A stretch of 40,748 bases of DNA from Bernardetia sp. (GTDB lineage Bacteria > Bacteroidota > Bacteroidia > Cytophagales > Bernardetiaceae). The notes beneath the pieces were generated by a model that worked only from the letters and a program-made list of their open reading frames with translations, was not told the origin of the DNA and searched no databases. This document shows positions 21,345 through 40,711 of this stretch, in pieces. Position 1 is the stretch's first letter; each line of letters begins with the position of its first letter. Position numbers and translations under genes: made by a program. The stretch lies in the NCBI RefSeq assembly GCF_020630935.1, contig NZ_JAHDIG010000043.1:1-40748 (forward strand), in the 5' to 3' direction.

Positions 21345-22398
21345 AATTAAATTAAAAAACTAAATCTCCACATATCATAAATACCATCTTTTGAGTTTTT
21401 TTGAAGTTGTCAGTCTCAAAACCTCATTTATTTTATTTTCAAATATGTCATTAAACTGTCTTTATTTTTTCCTGTGTTTTATCATAGCTAACCACAAAAC
21501 CTAATTTGTAGCTATAATGCTAGATAAGACGACTACTATATTTTTGTTTTATTTGATAATAAAGACAAAAATTCTTTAACCCAACTTTGTCAAAAATTAA
21601 ATTTTTAGAGATAAACAAAATCCTAAAAATTTAATCAATTTATTAAAAATTGGGGGCGCAAAAACTACCCTCGTTTTTCCATTTTTTCTAAAAAATAGCA
21701 GAATTGATGATTTTTTTAGCAATTCAAGTATTCTCTAAAAAAGTAGAGAGGAATAGTATATATGTGTCCAGGTATGTGGATTGTGATAACAAAATTGGTG
21801 AAAATAATTGAGAAAAAAAATCGGTTTTTGATAGGAGAATACGCCATTCTTTGAAAAGCAATGTAACCGTTTTTAAGCAAAAATCGCTGTTTATGATAGT
21901 ATTAGAGGGTTCGTGTAGATTTAGGTATTACTTAATCTTTACCAAAATGTTACGTGAGACGAAAAAAATTTTGATTTTCGATTTAGATTACTTCTAACTC
22001 TGCTTTTCGTAGTCATTAAAAATAATCAGCGTATTTGCAAGGACAAATTTGAATTTTACATTGTTAAGAATCATTATGTTTTAGGAAAAAAATGAACAAA
22101 TTTTAAACAATCAGATTCATGATTTTCTTCCTGCAATTTAAAAATAAAATAGCAAAAAGCTAAATTTATTAGCTAAGGTTGTTTGATGCCTAAAAGCGAG
22201 CGAAGCTAATGTAGTTTTACGATTGTCGGTACTGACCTATTGGTCTGACCTTGGTTTTTAGCTCTTATATAATAACTTTAACTGTTTTATTTCTCTCATT
22301 TCAAGATAGAAGAATAGTTTTTAAATAATTGCTCAAAATATTTAACTTAGATAACTTCTTCAAATTGAAGAAAAAGTTTACTGCAAAATCAAATAGCA
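21345..22398. other. 1.05-kb gene-free region upstream of dnaA; possible origin region
   Basis: No ORF above noise. It should hold the dnaA promoter. Very AT-rich stretches (about 21580-21655 and 22080-22180) could serve as unwinding elements. Only poor DnaA-box candidates are visible by eye: CAATCCACA (minus strand of TGTGGATTG near 21776) and ATCTCCACA near 21365, each 7 of 9 to TTATCCACA. There is no cluster, so an oriC call is not supported. The right part carries a dispersed repeat (22190-22257). Confidence 0.4.
22190..22257 (-). repeat. Partial copy of a dispersed hairpin repeat (right half)
   Basis: About 67 bases that match, as reverse complement, bases 28200-28264 at roughly 61 of 67 positions (about 91 %). 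Shared blocks include CCTAAAAGCGAG, AAGCTAATGTAGTT and ATTGTCGGTACTGACCTAT. The left arm of the hairpin (the GGTCTGCTCT part) is missing here; similarity stops after TTGGTT. Confidence 0.85.
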
Positions 22399-27079: not shown

Positions 27080-27529
27080 ATGTTTTATACCTCTAAAAAA
27101 GAATCTTGGGAAAAGGCTTTGGAAATAGCTGAAAAGAATGAAAGAAACCATCACATTGAACCAACTATAAAGTGGTTAAAGTCTAAAGGCTGTGATAAAG
27201 TGTTTTACATTAGTTTTTCTCATTATGACGTACTTCTGACAAAAAATTGGGGAAAAGGACGTAGTTCTGAGGAGACAATAATATTTGGCTTTAGTAAAGT
27301 TATGATGGCTAAGGGGGTATTACAAGGAATTACAGACATAGAGTCTAACAACACATTATTAGAAGACGATAAAGATTTTATCAAACTGAAAACAAAATGT
27401 CATAGAGAAATAAACAGGCTAATCATAGAAATCAAAACAGAAACAGAACATTACTCCCACATAACTAAGATAAACCAATACGACGAGTTTGAAAAGATTT
27501 TGGATGGAATTGTAGACAACTTAGTATAG
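27080..27529 (+). CDS. Hypothetical protein co-transcribed with the GAF-PAS protein
   Basis: 149 residues, soluble, Lys/Glu-rich, mostly helical by eye, with a central strand CDKVFYISFSHYDVLL. No family recognised. It starts 5 bases after the GAF-PAS stop and ends 2 bases before the next ATG. Tight spacing supports real translation and a link with the receptor, though a functional link is only a guess. Confidence 0.65.
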   Translation: MFYTSKKESWEKALEIAEKNERNHHIEPTIKWLKSKGCDKVFYISFSHYDVLLTKNWGKGRSSEETIIFGFSKVMMAKGVLQGITDIESNNTLLEDDKDFIKLKTKCHREINRLIIEIKTETEHYSHITKINQYDEFEKILDGIVDNLV

Positions 27530-27531
27530 TT

Positions 27532-27744
27532 ATGAATAGAAATAAAATAGTCGCATTTGCCTTCGCATTAATATTTTTTGGATACTCTTTTTTATCAGAA
27601 AAAGTACACGATTATATTAAGAAAAAGCTTAGAAATGATATAGTAAATAATGTGAACTCGGGATTAAAAACCAATCTTAAATGCTTCTCTATACACTACA
27701 GAAACTATTTTCGGTCTGCTCTAACGAGGCTGACCTATTTTTAA
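27532..27744 (+). CDS. Truncated hypothetical protein ending inside a repeat
   Basis: 70 residues beginning with a membrane or signal segment (7-23, VAFAFALIFFGYSFLS), then a basic stretch. The last 11 residues (RSALTRLTYF) and the stop codon are encoded by the hairpin repeat at 27712-27771. The true gene was therefore probably longer and was cut by the insertion. The ORF at 27797-28147, just beyond the repeat in another frame, may be its detached 3' part. It starts 2 bases after the preceding gene, so it belonged to that operon. Confidence 0.5.
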   Translation: MNRNKIVAFAFALIFFGYSFLSEKVHDYIKKKLRNDIVNNVNSGLKTNLKCFSIHYRNYFRSALTRLTYF

Positions 27745-27771
27745 TTAAGGTCAGCCCAAAGGGCAGTACCG
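27712..27771 (+). repeat. Dispersed hairpin repeat, compact complete copy
   Basis: Sixty bases folding into one long hairpin. Outer stem CGGTCTGCTC (27712-27721) pairs with GGGCAG-T-ACCG (27761-27771, one bulged T). Inner stem GGCTGACCT (27728-27736) pairs perfectly with AGGTCAGCC (27748-27756), loop ATTTTTAATTA. The left arm matches 28168-28191 almost base for base and also the fragment at 40687-40711. Confidence 0.85.
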
Positions 27772-27796
27772 AAGTTTAAAAGAATATCATAACTCA

Positions 27797-28147
27797 TTGA
27801 TAATCAATAAATATAATTCCGAGTTCACGTTAAATAAGTTGCAAGCACAAGACATAATTATACTGATAAATGAAAAGAAACTAGACAAACCTTCTAAATT
27901 ACTATTTATAAGTGGTATGCAAACGCTTAGAAAAATAGCTTATCATCACTCTTCAACAACAAACAAAAGAACAGTAAGTATCATTTCTCATTTAGATACA
28001 ACTATTCTAAATTTATATCAAGATTCAAAAAGACCAAGAGAGTTTTGGGTGTATTTAGGAGAAAAAAAAGTGGGAAGAGTTGATATAGAAAATGATTCTC
28101 TATTAGAAATTTTGGGAGTAGAAAAACCTTATAATAATGAGTTTTAA
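27797..28147 (+). CDS. Hypothetical protein fragment (TTG start, or 3' part of a split gene)
   Basis: 116 codons opening with TTG; the frame is in fact open from inside the repeat (27749). Residues ITVSIISHLDTTILN- and FWVYLGEKKVGRVDIEND-like segments look like a real soluble alpha/beta protein, but no family is recognised. Without a good start and with the repeat immediately upstream, I regard it as the remaining 3' part of a gene whose 5' part is 27532-27744, or as a gene that lost its own start. The two frames differ, so simple removal of the 60-base hairpin alone would not join them. Confidence 0.45.
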   Translation: MIINKYNSEFTLNKLQAQDIIILINEKKLDKPSKLLFISGMQTLRKIAYHHSSTTNKRTVSIISHLDTTILNLYQDSKRPREFWVYLGEKKVGRVDIENDSLLEILGVEKPYNNEF

Positions 28148-28166
28148 ATTTTACAAGAATAGTTTA

Positions 28167-28267
28167 AGGTCTGCTCTAGCGAGACTGACCTAATAGAACC
28201 AAGGTCAGACCGATAGGTCAGTACCGACAATTATATAACTACATTAGCTTTACTCGCTTTTAGGTCT
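28167..28267 (+). repeat. Dispersed hairpin repeat, long copy with 3' extension
   Basis: Left arm GGTCTGCTCTAGCGAG then ACTGACCT (28168-28191), loop, AGGTCAG (28202-28208), then ATAGGTCAGTACC, and an extension to about 28264 ending CTCGCTTTTAGG. The inner stem CTGACCT/AGGTCAG is perfect. Bases 28200-28264 recur inverted at 22190-22257. It sits 20 bases after the stop of the 27797 ORF. No transposase or other ORF is inside. Confidence 0.85.
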
Positions 28268-28434
28268 TAAAATTTATTCAAAAAAAAGAAATGAAATAAG
28301 TTGGCTTTTCATTCGTAATTTTTAATTGATAAATTCGTAATTGAGTCAATACTTGAATAACTCACAAAAACCAATTAATTTTACATACGTATAAAGTCAG
28401 ATAATCAAAACTCATTTTTAATCCATTTTTATAG

Positions 28435-29838
28435 ATGAAATACGACGTAACAGTTATTGGTTCGGGACCGGGTGGCTATGTAGCAGCCATTCGTGCAGCA
28501 CAGTTAGGACTCAAAACTGCAATCATAGAAAAATATAGTACACTTGGTGGAACGTGCCTAAATGTAGGCTGTATTCCTTCAAAGGCTCTTTTAGACTCTT
28601 CTGAACATTACCACAACGCACAAAAACACTTCAAAGAACACGGAATTGAAATCAATGCACCAAAAGTAGATTTTGAGCAAATGATTAATCGTAAGCGTGA
28701 TGTAGTAAGCAAAACATGTGATGGAGTTTCTTTTTTGATGAAGAAAAACAAAATTGATGTACATCAAGGAGTAGGTTCTTTTATTGATAAGAATAATATC
28801 AAAATCACAGCAGAAGACGGCAAAGAAACCAAAATAGAAACGGATAAGGTAATTATCGCTACAGGTTCGAAGCCCACTATTTTCCCATTCTTCCCTTACG
28901 ATAAAAAGCGTTTCATTACTTCAACAGAAGCCTTAGAGCTTAAAGAAGTTCCCAAGAAAATGATTGTTATTGGTGGTGGCGTTATCGGAATGGAACTCGG
29001 TTCTGTATATGCTCGCTTGGGAACAGAAGTTTCTGTAGTGGAGTTTATGCCTTCTATTTTGGGCTCAATGGACAGCACAATGGGGAAAGAATTAGAAAGA
29101 GTGAGTAAAAAAACACTCAAAATGAAATTCTTTTTACAACATAAAGTAGAAGAAGCAAAACAAGATGGCGATGAAGTAGTCATCAAAGCAACTGATAAAA
29201 AAGGTAAAGAAGTAGAGTTTAGAGCAGATTATTGTTTGTTGGCAGTTGGTCGTAGTCCTTATACAGAAGGCTTAGGTTTAGAAAATATTGGTATCAAGAC
29301 AGACAAAAGAGGAACTATCGAAGTAAACGACCATTTGGAAACAAGCGTAAAAGGTGTTTATGCAATTGGCGATGTGGTTCGTGGTGCAATGCTCGCACAC
29401 AAAGCAGAAGAAGAAGGTGTAATGGTTGCCGAACTTATGGCAGGACAAAAACCTCATATCAATTATCTCCTAATTCCGGGGGTAGTTTATACATGGCCAG
29501 AAGTGGCGAGTGTGGGCTACACAGAGGAGCAGCTCAAAGAATCTGGTAGAAAATACAAAGTAGGTTCGTTTCCATTTATGGCACTTGGTAGAGCAAGAGC
29601 TTCAATGGACACAGACGGCTTAGTAAAAGTTTTGGCAGACGAAAAAACAGATGAAATTTTGGGAATGCATATCATTGGAGCAAGAGCAGCCGATATGATT
29701 GCGACTGGTGTAACGGCAATGGAATTTAGAGCATCAGCTGAAGATGTTGCAAGACAAAGCCATGCTCACCCAACATATATGGAAGCTGTAAAAGAAGCCT
29801 GCCTAGCAGCTACTGAAAACCGTGCTGTTCATATATAA
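28435..29838 (+). CDS. lpdA: Dihydrolipoyl dehydrogenase (E3)
   Basis: FAD-dependent disulfide reductase that reoxidises dihydrolipoyl groups of pyruvate and 2-oxoglutarate dehydrogenases and of the glycine cleavage H protein. 467 residues, normal length. The FAD fold is GSGPGGYVAA (9-18), the redox disulfide is C41/C46 in GGTCLNVGCIPSK, the NAD-binding GGGVIGMELGSVYARLG starts near 180, and the C-terminal catalytic pair is H445/E450 in HAHPTYMEA. No E1 or E2 genes are near, so it probably serves several complexes, including the GcvP encoded at 2667. A 28-base palindromic terminator follows. Confidence 0.98.
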   Translation: MKYDVTVIGSGPGGYVAAIRAAQLGLKTAIIEKYSTLGGTCLNVGCIPSKALLDSSEHYHNAQKHFKEHGIEINAPKVDFEQMINRKRDVVSKTCDGVSFLMKKNKIDVHQGVGSFIDKNNIKITAEDGKETKIETDKVIIATGSKPTIFPFFPYDKKRFITSTEALELKEVPKKMIVIGGGVIGMELGSVYARLGTEVSVVEFMPSILGSMDSTMGKELERVSKKTLKMKFFLQHKVEEAKQDGDEVVIKATDKKGKEVEFRADYCLLAVGRSPYTEGLGLENIGIKTDKRGTIEVNDHLETSVKGVYAIGDVVRGAMLAHKAEEEGVMVAELMAGQKPHINYLLIPGVVYTWPEVASVGYTEEQLKESGRKYKVGSFPFMALGRARASMDTDGLVKVLADEKTDEILGMHIIGARAADMIATGVTAMEFRASAEDVARQSHAHPTYMEAVKEACLAATENRAVHI

Positions 29839-40686: not shown

Positions 40687-40711
40687 TAGGTCAGTCTCGT
40701 TAGAGCAGACC
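40687..40711 (-). repeat. Fragment of the dispersed hairpin repeat (left arm)
   Basis: Twenty-five bases matching the reverse complement of the left arm of the copies at 27.7 and 28.2 kb (GGTCTGCTCTAACGAG then ACTGACCTA). The right arm is not found on the gene-proximal side. It lies 44 bases after the DinB gene at the window edge. Confidence 0.8.

Follow-up and report, generated by a model that had tools for sequence, protein, structure and literature searches.

REPs, REPINs, RAYTs and IS982 MITEs are already known as kinds of element. In the sections of Bertels and Rainey 2011 (PMC3116915) and Nunvar 2010 (PMC2817692) that serve as the basis of comparison here, REPIN/RAYT systems consist of inverted REP doublets, dispersed and extragenic, which cluster beside a Y1 transposase gene, with a separate REP for each RAYT group. 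Also known, from the portions of Quentin 2018 (PMC6006769) drawn upon, is that Bacteroidetes RAYTs are flanked by ‘atypical secondary structures’, copies of which occur elsewhere in the genome; in those portions the atypical REPs are given no stated sequence signature. A further kind, the CGTC-tagged REPs, whose tag varies to TGTC, comes from Bacteroidetes among others and is described without transposase-gene association in the relevant parts of Di Nocera 2013 (PMC3733652).

The hairpins considered here lie in a 40,748-nt stretch of Bernardetia sp. DNA (assembly GCF_020630935.1, contig NZ_JAHDIG010000043.1), the whole of which is referred to as the window. They share with the REPIN/RAYT systems of the sources above the inverted doublets, the dispersed and extragenic distribution, the clusters beside a Y1 transposase gene and the separate REP for each RAYT group. 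Unlike canonical systems, they show no 5' GT[AG]G tetranucleotide and most copies have MITE ends. It is proposed, with a probability of about 0.87, that the window hairpins are copies of a REPIN which is linked to a RAYT elsewhere in the genome and which was then enclosed in three MITE families that spread it. Most copies seem to have spread as passengers in these three kinds of miniature transposon. What is new is the recurrence of REPINs as MITE cargo, together with a GTCNGAC/GTGNCAC signature beside related RAYT genes; no report of either was found in the literature outside supplements, preprints and most subscription journals.

The hairpins of the window

The arm GGTCTGCTCTA(A/G)CGAG begins at position 27713 and again, 455 nt further on, at 28168, as expected from a preliminary description of two near-complete copies; the number of matches expected in a shuffled window is 0. 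Each arm is an imperfect palindrome of about 23 nt, the left arm consisting of GGTCTG, a 3-bp stem, a loop, one extra base and CTGACC. Because each arm is itself palindromic, the ‘long hairpin’ consists of two REPs, one inverted relative to the other. The left REP of copy 1, recognised by the arm match and the REP-internal pairs, occupies 27713-27735 (+) and its inverted right REP 27749-27770 (+). In copy 2 the left REP, again with an arm match, is at 28168-28190 (+) and the inverted right REP at 28203-28225 (+). Alongside these two two-arm copies (27713-27770 and 28168-28225), the window contains two single-arm remnants: the right REP of a degenerate copy at 22228-22251 (-), which is followed by a class B MITE right arm at about 22174-22219 (-), and a lone left REP without a partner at 40688-40711 (-).

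Copy 1 folds as first described, with a z score of -7.6 for the RNA that is equalled by 0 of 200 shuffles, while the fold of copy 2 is weaker (z -3.1; 2 of 200). The suggestion that both arms had changed in step holds for one position of the long hairpin, where copy 2 has A.A and copy 1 has G-C; elsewhere the change affects a single arm. An integron attC site, suggested by CTCTAACG, was considered and dropped, the other arm showing no matching box when read by eye.

Copy number and distribution

With up to one mismatch, the 16-mer of the arm occurs at 33 places in the same genome, its reversed control at none. A covariance model built from 22 copies gave at least 124 raw hits at E<=1 when 150 of 1601 first-look candidates were scored, a figure in which palindromes are frequently counted on both strands. 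A renewed search of 86 loci (223 kb) at E<=0.01 returned 122 rows, 30 of which were set aside as opposite-strand reads, leaving 92 distinct places, the weakest with a genome-wide E of 0.04-0.08. The dispersed repeat family postulated from the two window copies, for which a genome-wide count had been advised, is thereby borne out: 92 distinct places were read in the 4.75-Mb genome. None of them lies within an ORF of at least 100 aa, as against 1271 of 1562 random 60-mers from the same loci.

Across 59 genomes, searched with stricter filters and up to 85 candidates per genome scored, matches at E<=0.1 were found in seven. Five belong to the genus, namely the genome of the window and four congeners with at least 13, 1, 16 and 7 hits; the remaining two come from other families and show a single weak hit apiece (E about 0.05). 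A further two congeners gave no model hit under these stricter filters. An exact 25-mer had no match in a contig collection from which near records may be left out.

Which fold is conserved

Compensatory change had been put forward as a means of judging the hairpin, and the argument holds for one fold and not for the other. Among 62 two-arm copies that were selected and aligned (single REPs also exist), the covariation of the long hairpin, at 0.053, is near control level, the shuffle mean being 0.046, with 10 of 500 shuffles as high and one slid control reaching 0.064. The two small REP-internal hairpins, one in each arm, score 0.144, against a shuffle mean of 0.081 (0 of 500 as high) and slid controls of at most 0.057. 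They contain 33 double-change cells, compared with 10.5 in shuffles (0 of 500), and 6 pairs with a double change, compared with 2.9 (6 of 500); the further pair types, 18 against 15.7 (28 of 500), are less clear on their own. The signal comes mainly from one pair found in two REP subtypes (C-G 32, A-U 21), so that few events may underlie it. A supplementary legend of Bertels and Rainey 2011 (PMC3116915) proposes a ‘clover’ fold, not the long hairpin, as the RAYT target, and the covariation counts, as a comparison of sequences, agree with this single-REP proposal. The family lends itself to testing which of the two REPIN folds is retained, and points to the single-REP ‘clover’ rather than the long hairpin.

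That the hairpin is a functional RNA or a transcription terminator, repeated by chance, would suit its extragenic copies and stable RNA fold. The near-control covariation of the long hairpin argues against it, as do insertions with target duplications that a relative lacks at the corresponding sites, and the Rfam search of 27500-28450, which gave no match above the gathering score and two below it. This explanation is considered highly improbable. The preliminary description had left the choice between a mobile and an RNA-functional repeat; mobility is supported by a RAYT with its array and by many dispersed copies, and the RNA alternative finds no support in Rfam.

A RAYT gene with an adjoining REP array

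A gene for a 196-aa Y1 (HUH) transposase is present in the genome of the window, designated G000, at G000:C17:40432-41019. Directly upstream lies a tandem array of the hairpin with 76-bp spacing, comprising three strong hits with weak partial ones on either side. The RAYT of a congener, G001, encoded by a gene 77% identical to that of G000, has two near-perfect copies upstream, and in both genomes a diverged single REP lies downstream. A search for a linked RAYT, advised at the outset, has thus found one with a hairpin array in G000 and another in G001. The Poisson chance of four copies within 1.6 kb in G000, one of the four being a MITE-borne copy downstream, is about 4e-8, and that of two copies beside the G001 gene is 9e-6.

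Each window hairpin was compared with the upstream flank of either RAYT, that of G000 and that of G001, and in all four tests the match was equalled by 0 of 1000 shuffles; neither hairpin matches the flanks of a group II or group IV RAYT, where 109 to 858 of 1000 shuffles are as good. With the group-I flank limited to its upstream part, copy 1 scores 61 and copy 2 scores 64; copy 1 scores 106 when the flank also includes the downstream MITE-borne copy. For the short stretch between the RAYT and this MITE, 35 (copy 1) and 1 (copy 2) of 1000 shuffles are as good. Among 17 RAYT-like loci examined in the genus, model hits are confined to those of G000 and G001; two of the RAYT-like loci, L137 and L138, could not be located for flank reading. 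The RAYT genes of G003 and G005, 64-65% identical, have a related palindrome in their flanks, and the more distant groups of the genus, among those located, have different flank repeats.

Further RAYT groups of the genus (L128, L131, L133, L130, L134, L135, L136, L139 and L140) each have their own flanking palindrome, with types such as TGTCTGACAC.., CCGTCGTTGAGG.. and TTGTCAGAGTTA..; a strict pattern for the group-II REP finds 7 places in the genus and is too narrow for a census. In both G000 and G001 the RAYT array (L118, L119) stands just behind a gene that, by eye, resembles part of a restriction-modification system. At L120 (G001:C1:2714000-2717500) a hairpin lies between a gene for a 624-aa ATPase-like protein and one for a 314-aa protein with, by eye, an HNH-like cysteine pattern, a pair reminiscent of the Septu defence system.

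The hairpin could instead be an ordinary IS200/IS605 end or remnant moved by an IS200-type TnpA, and PF01797 matches are present in all seven genomes of the genus. However, when 30 of the 57 PF01797 loci were searched with the model, the single hit (E 0.044) was unconvincing, and at least one of these 30 loci (L104) is itself a group-II RAYT. There is very little likelihood that this explanation is correct.

Features of the RAYT protein

The motifs NH[FY]H and Y[IV]H[QKR]NP are found in all nine aligned RAYTs. The G000 protein has YIHQNP, and an F replaces L/I/V within its HUH motif; a second F, at the presumed place of the W motif, is invariant in both RAYT alignments. By our own count, 73 residues separate HuH and Y. 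REP_Tyr_transpos of NCBIfam is the sole family hit (E 9.5e-10 and 9.9e-12), with scores below the curated cut-offs of both NCBIfam (38-45 of 80 bits) and Pfam (18-19 of 23). A search of PDB sequences turned up nothing relevant. The predicted structure of a Marivirga homologue (pLDDT 94) has as its best PDB match in Foldseek 4er8, a RAYT with a REP hairpin (E 3.7e-8); tRNA-His guanylyltransferases also appear in the same list, from E 2e-4. Judged by linkage, sequence motifs and the modelled fold of this homologue, the predicted product of G000:C17:40432-41019 belongs to the RAYTs, Y1/HUH transposases of single-stranded DNA, and is linked to the REPIN.

One of the closest described systems, in the portions of Quentin 2018 (PMC6006769) used, is TnpAY1 subclass 2.6, or Bertels group 5, with which the RAYT shares NH-x-H, YIH[QN]NP, the phylum and atypical flanking structures. 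Subclass 2.6 is there given NH[LIV]H, a median HuH-Y distance of 82 and WQ as its W motif, whereas the protein here has the F of an NHFH-type motif, a spacing of 73 and F in place of W. Because of this last difference it is not filed as a firm member. The same portions of that paper (PMC6006769) describe REPs of subclass 2.6 that likewise have no GT[AG]G. A canonical GTAG REP was rejected for the present family, as the tetranucleotide is absent, by eye, from the REP foot throughout the alignment of 62 copies.

Like the CGTC-tagged REPs in the parts of Di Nocera 2013 (PMC3733652) used, those described here are palindromes with an xGTC end. Unlike them, the GGTC/TGTC palindromes do flank RAYT genes. 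The CGTC-tagged REPs of that source have an 8-9 bp stem starting with AT and a CCA-like tail, in contrast to the pairing GGTC foot, 3-bp inner stem and absence of such a tail seen here. As stem and tail differ, membership of this class is not claimed.

MITE families that carry the REPIN

MITE ends were recognised on 69 of the 92 copies, counting those with at least one end, and both ends on 32. They belong to three families with mutually unrelated ends: class A, which is of IS982 type (22 of 92 copies, 13 two-ended), class B (26 of 92, 11 two-ended) and class C (21 of 92, 8 two-ended). The remaining copies are the three of the RAYT array, classed by position in this tally and found in separate tests to have no A, B or C ends, and 20 that are bare. 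False matches of the end patterns in 3000 shuffled flanks numbered 3 for A, 0 for B and 54 for C. The REP/BIME or MITE architecture recognised in the preliminary description holds in both its halves: the hairpin is a REPIN and most of its copies have MITE ends.

Exact target duplications of 6-7 bp accompany 10 of the 13 two-ended class A copies. With looser end patterns, a 3-bp repeat is found at one fixed offset in 7 of 15 class B copies (9 counting TTT) and at a fixed offset in 5 of 11 class C copies, with a sixth by eye. Class A resembles the IS982-family MITEs in these duplications and in its TIR, which is that of a 1052-bp element encoding an IS982-family transposase in G002 and G006; it differs from ordinary members of that kind in that its interior contains a REPIN. 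The assembly of the window yielded no IS982 transposase, only TIR-bearing pieces at contig ends, and no class B parent was found in the contig-end pieces read.

Twenty stretches around class A ends were examined in G002, G004 and G006. Four, in G002 and G006, are two-ended elements of 182-184 bp that bear a different REPIN; the remaining stretches have other interiors or a single end. For the one tested among the four, L202, the match is with the flanks of group-II RAYTs, where 0 of 1000 shuffles are as good, and not with group I. The interiors of class A in the window and in G002/G006 are at best borderline in similarity (left, 39 to 647, and right, 222 to 288, of 2000 shuffles as good), and only the TIRs are therefore claimed as shared.

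An origin in the reverse order would make the hairpin an original structural part of the MITE, such as an RNA-processing or termination hairpin, with the RAYT array formed later from MITE copies. The MITE ends on 69 of 92 copies and the position of all 92 outside ORFs of at least 100 aa are compatible with such an origin. Against it, the homologous RAYT genes of several other genera have a nearly identical REP in their flanks, and end patterns of classes A, B and C are all absent from the 432 nt bearing the RAYT array. Class B ends also surround other interiors and, in G002 and G006, four IS982-type elements, of which one was tested, contain another REPIN. From these exchanges of interior it follows that the hairpin behaves as exchangeable cargo, and an origin as a MITE part is judged to be quite unlikely.

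Class B ends around other interiors with short palindromes (GTCAGCATATGCTGAC and TCAAGCATTATGCTTGA types) are seen at L192, L193, L195 and L198, three of the four at contig starts. At the end of contig G000:C62 (L122), an IS982-type end sequence is found inside a MITE-borne REPIN at the contig edge.

Insertions in the window

Copy 1 is carried by a class A MITE of 181 bp with IS982-type TIRs, at 27650-27830 (+), whose TIR matches extend over 27649-27666 (+) and 27814-27831 (-). The target-site duplication TAAATA flanks it at 27644-27649 on the left and 27831-27836 on the right. The element breaks a gene at 27532-28147 (+), which becomes one 142-aa frame when the empty site is joined; the homologue in the congener G003 (L315) is uninterrupted, with 77% DNA identity over 431 columns, and is followed by the same gene. 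The spacer that precedes the next gene measures 287 nt and contains copy 2; the matching spacer of G003 is 103 nt long and without a copy. A class B right terminal repeat is present at 28241-28270 (+), the left repeat not being recognisable. Copy 1 is MITE-borne with both ends, and copy 2 retains one MITE end.

In the proposed mechanism, the REPIN is a unit of two inverted REPs of about 23 nt. Each REP combines a GGTC/GACC foot with a mismatch, a short stem that covaries and, in most cases, a single bulged base. As judged from its E. coli counterpart, the RAYT may bind REP hairpins in single-stranded DNA, cut and rejoin them, an activity that could have produced the array beside its own gene and seeded copies elsewhere. 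Placing of the REPIN into a MITE may likewise have been the work of the RAYT. Once the REPINs were enclosed in three MITE families, one of IS982 type and two with unrelated ends, putative DDE-type transposases would have multiplied them by way of the MITE ends. The MITE step is supported by the enclosure itself, the class A target duplications and the absence of two insertions from the corresponding sites of the congener.

REPs beside RAYTs of other genera

Since the exact 25-mer found no record, the RAYT protein was used to find named relatives. A search with the RAYT alignment confirmed 568 loci, of which the best 80 were kept; the first 40 of these were examined for repeats in their flanks. 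Closely similar REPs stand beside RAYTs of Marivirga, Roseivirga, Emticicia, Ferruginibacter, an unclassified bacterium (L233) and a Chitinophagales MAG (L241). Taken with the RAYT and REP array in the window's own genome and in a congener, these similar REPs uphold the initial REP/RAYT lead. In eight genomes, the REP pattern with up to two mismatches was found at 31 places in Marivirga, 12 in Roseivirga, 25 in Ferruginibacter and 5 in Emticicia, with a control of 0-1; one further genome has two places and three of the eight none. The coordinates of 13 of the 31 Marivirga places, C17:831359-833662 in that assembly, are those of the RAYT locus. Three of the Emticicia places are clustered and the other two have two mismatches.

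All 64 odd palindromes of the form xyzNz'y'x' were counted up to 400 bp from the 80 RAYT genes and compared with sequence more than 900 bp away. Near these best 80 of 568 genes, GTCNGAC occurs 95 times against 5.7 expected (17-fold) and GTGNCAC 52 times against 7.1 (7-fold), the next palindrome class reaching 3-fold; the counts are inflated by arrays. At least two of one signature palindrome are present at 27 of the 80 loci, 23 among the nearest 40 and 4 among the rest, and 53 do not reach this count. On a quick tree of 86 RAYTs, from which three of the 80 loci with internal stops are omitted, one of them the Emticicia gene L230, the signature label needs 10 changes compared with 28.2 in shuffles (0 of 200 as low), and likewise 10 without the genus rows. 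The labels of the nine genus rows were assigned by eye; strictly, exact GTCNGAC occurs 0 times beside each of the G000 and G001 RAYTs, where GGTCNG is found 6 and 4 times and the motif takes the form GGTCTG..CTGACC.

Implications

At least four pairings of MITE and REPIN have been seen: IS982-type ends with REPIN I and with REPIN II, class B with REPIN I, and class C with REPIN I. It is possible, although this is put forward tentatively, that this RAYT branch of Bacteroidota reads a GTCNGAC/GTGNCAC code, which would give the ‘atypical’ REPs a definition and may connect REPs with an xGTC tag to a transposase, and that REPINs have been repeatedly captured by MITEs to give chimeric elements on which two engines can act, with a single-strand HUH enzyme working on the REPs and a DDE enzyme on the MITE ends. 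For the ‘atypical secondary structures’ that flank Bacteroidota RAYTs, the palindromes GTCNGAC and GTGNCAC provide a concrete, searchable signature. As MITE cargo, REPINs would have a second route of multiplication, and where this operates REPIN copy number is no measure of RAYT activity.
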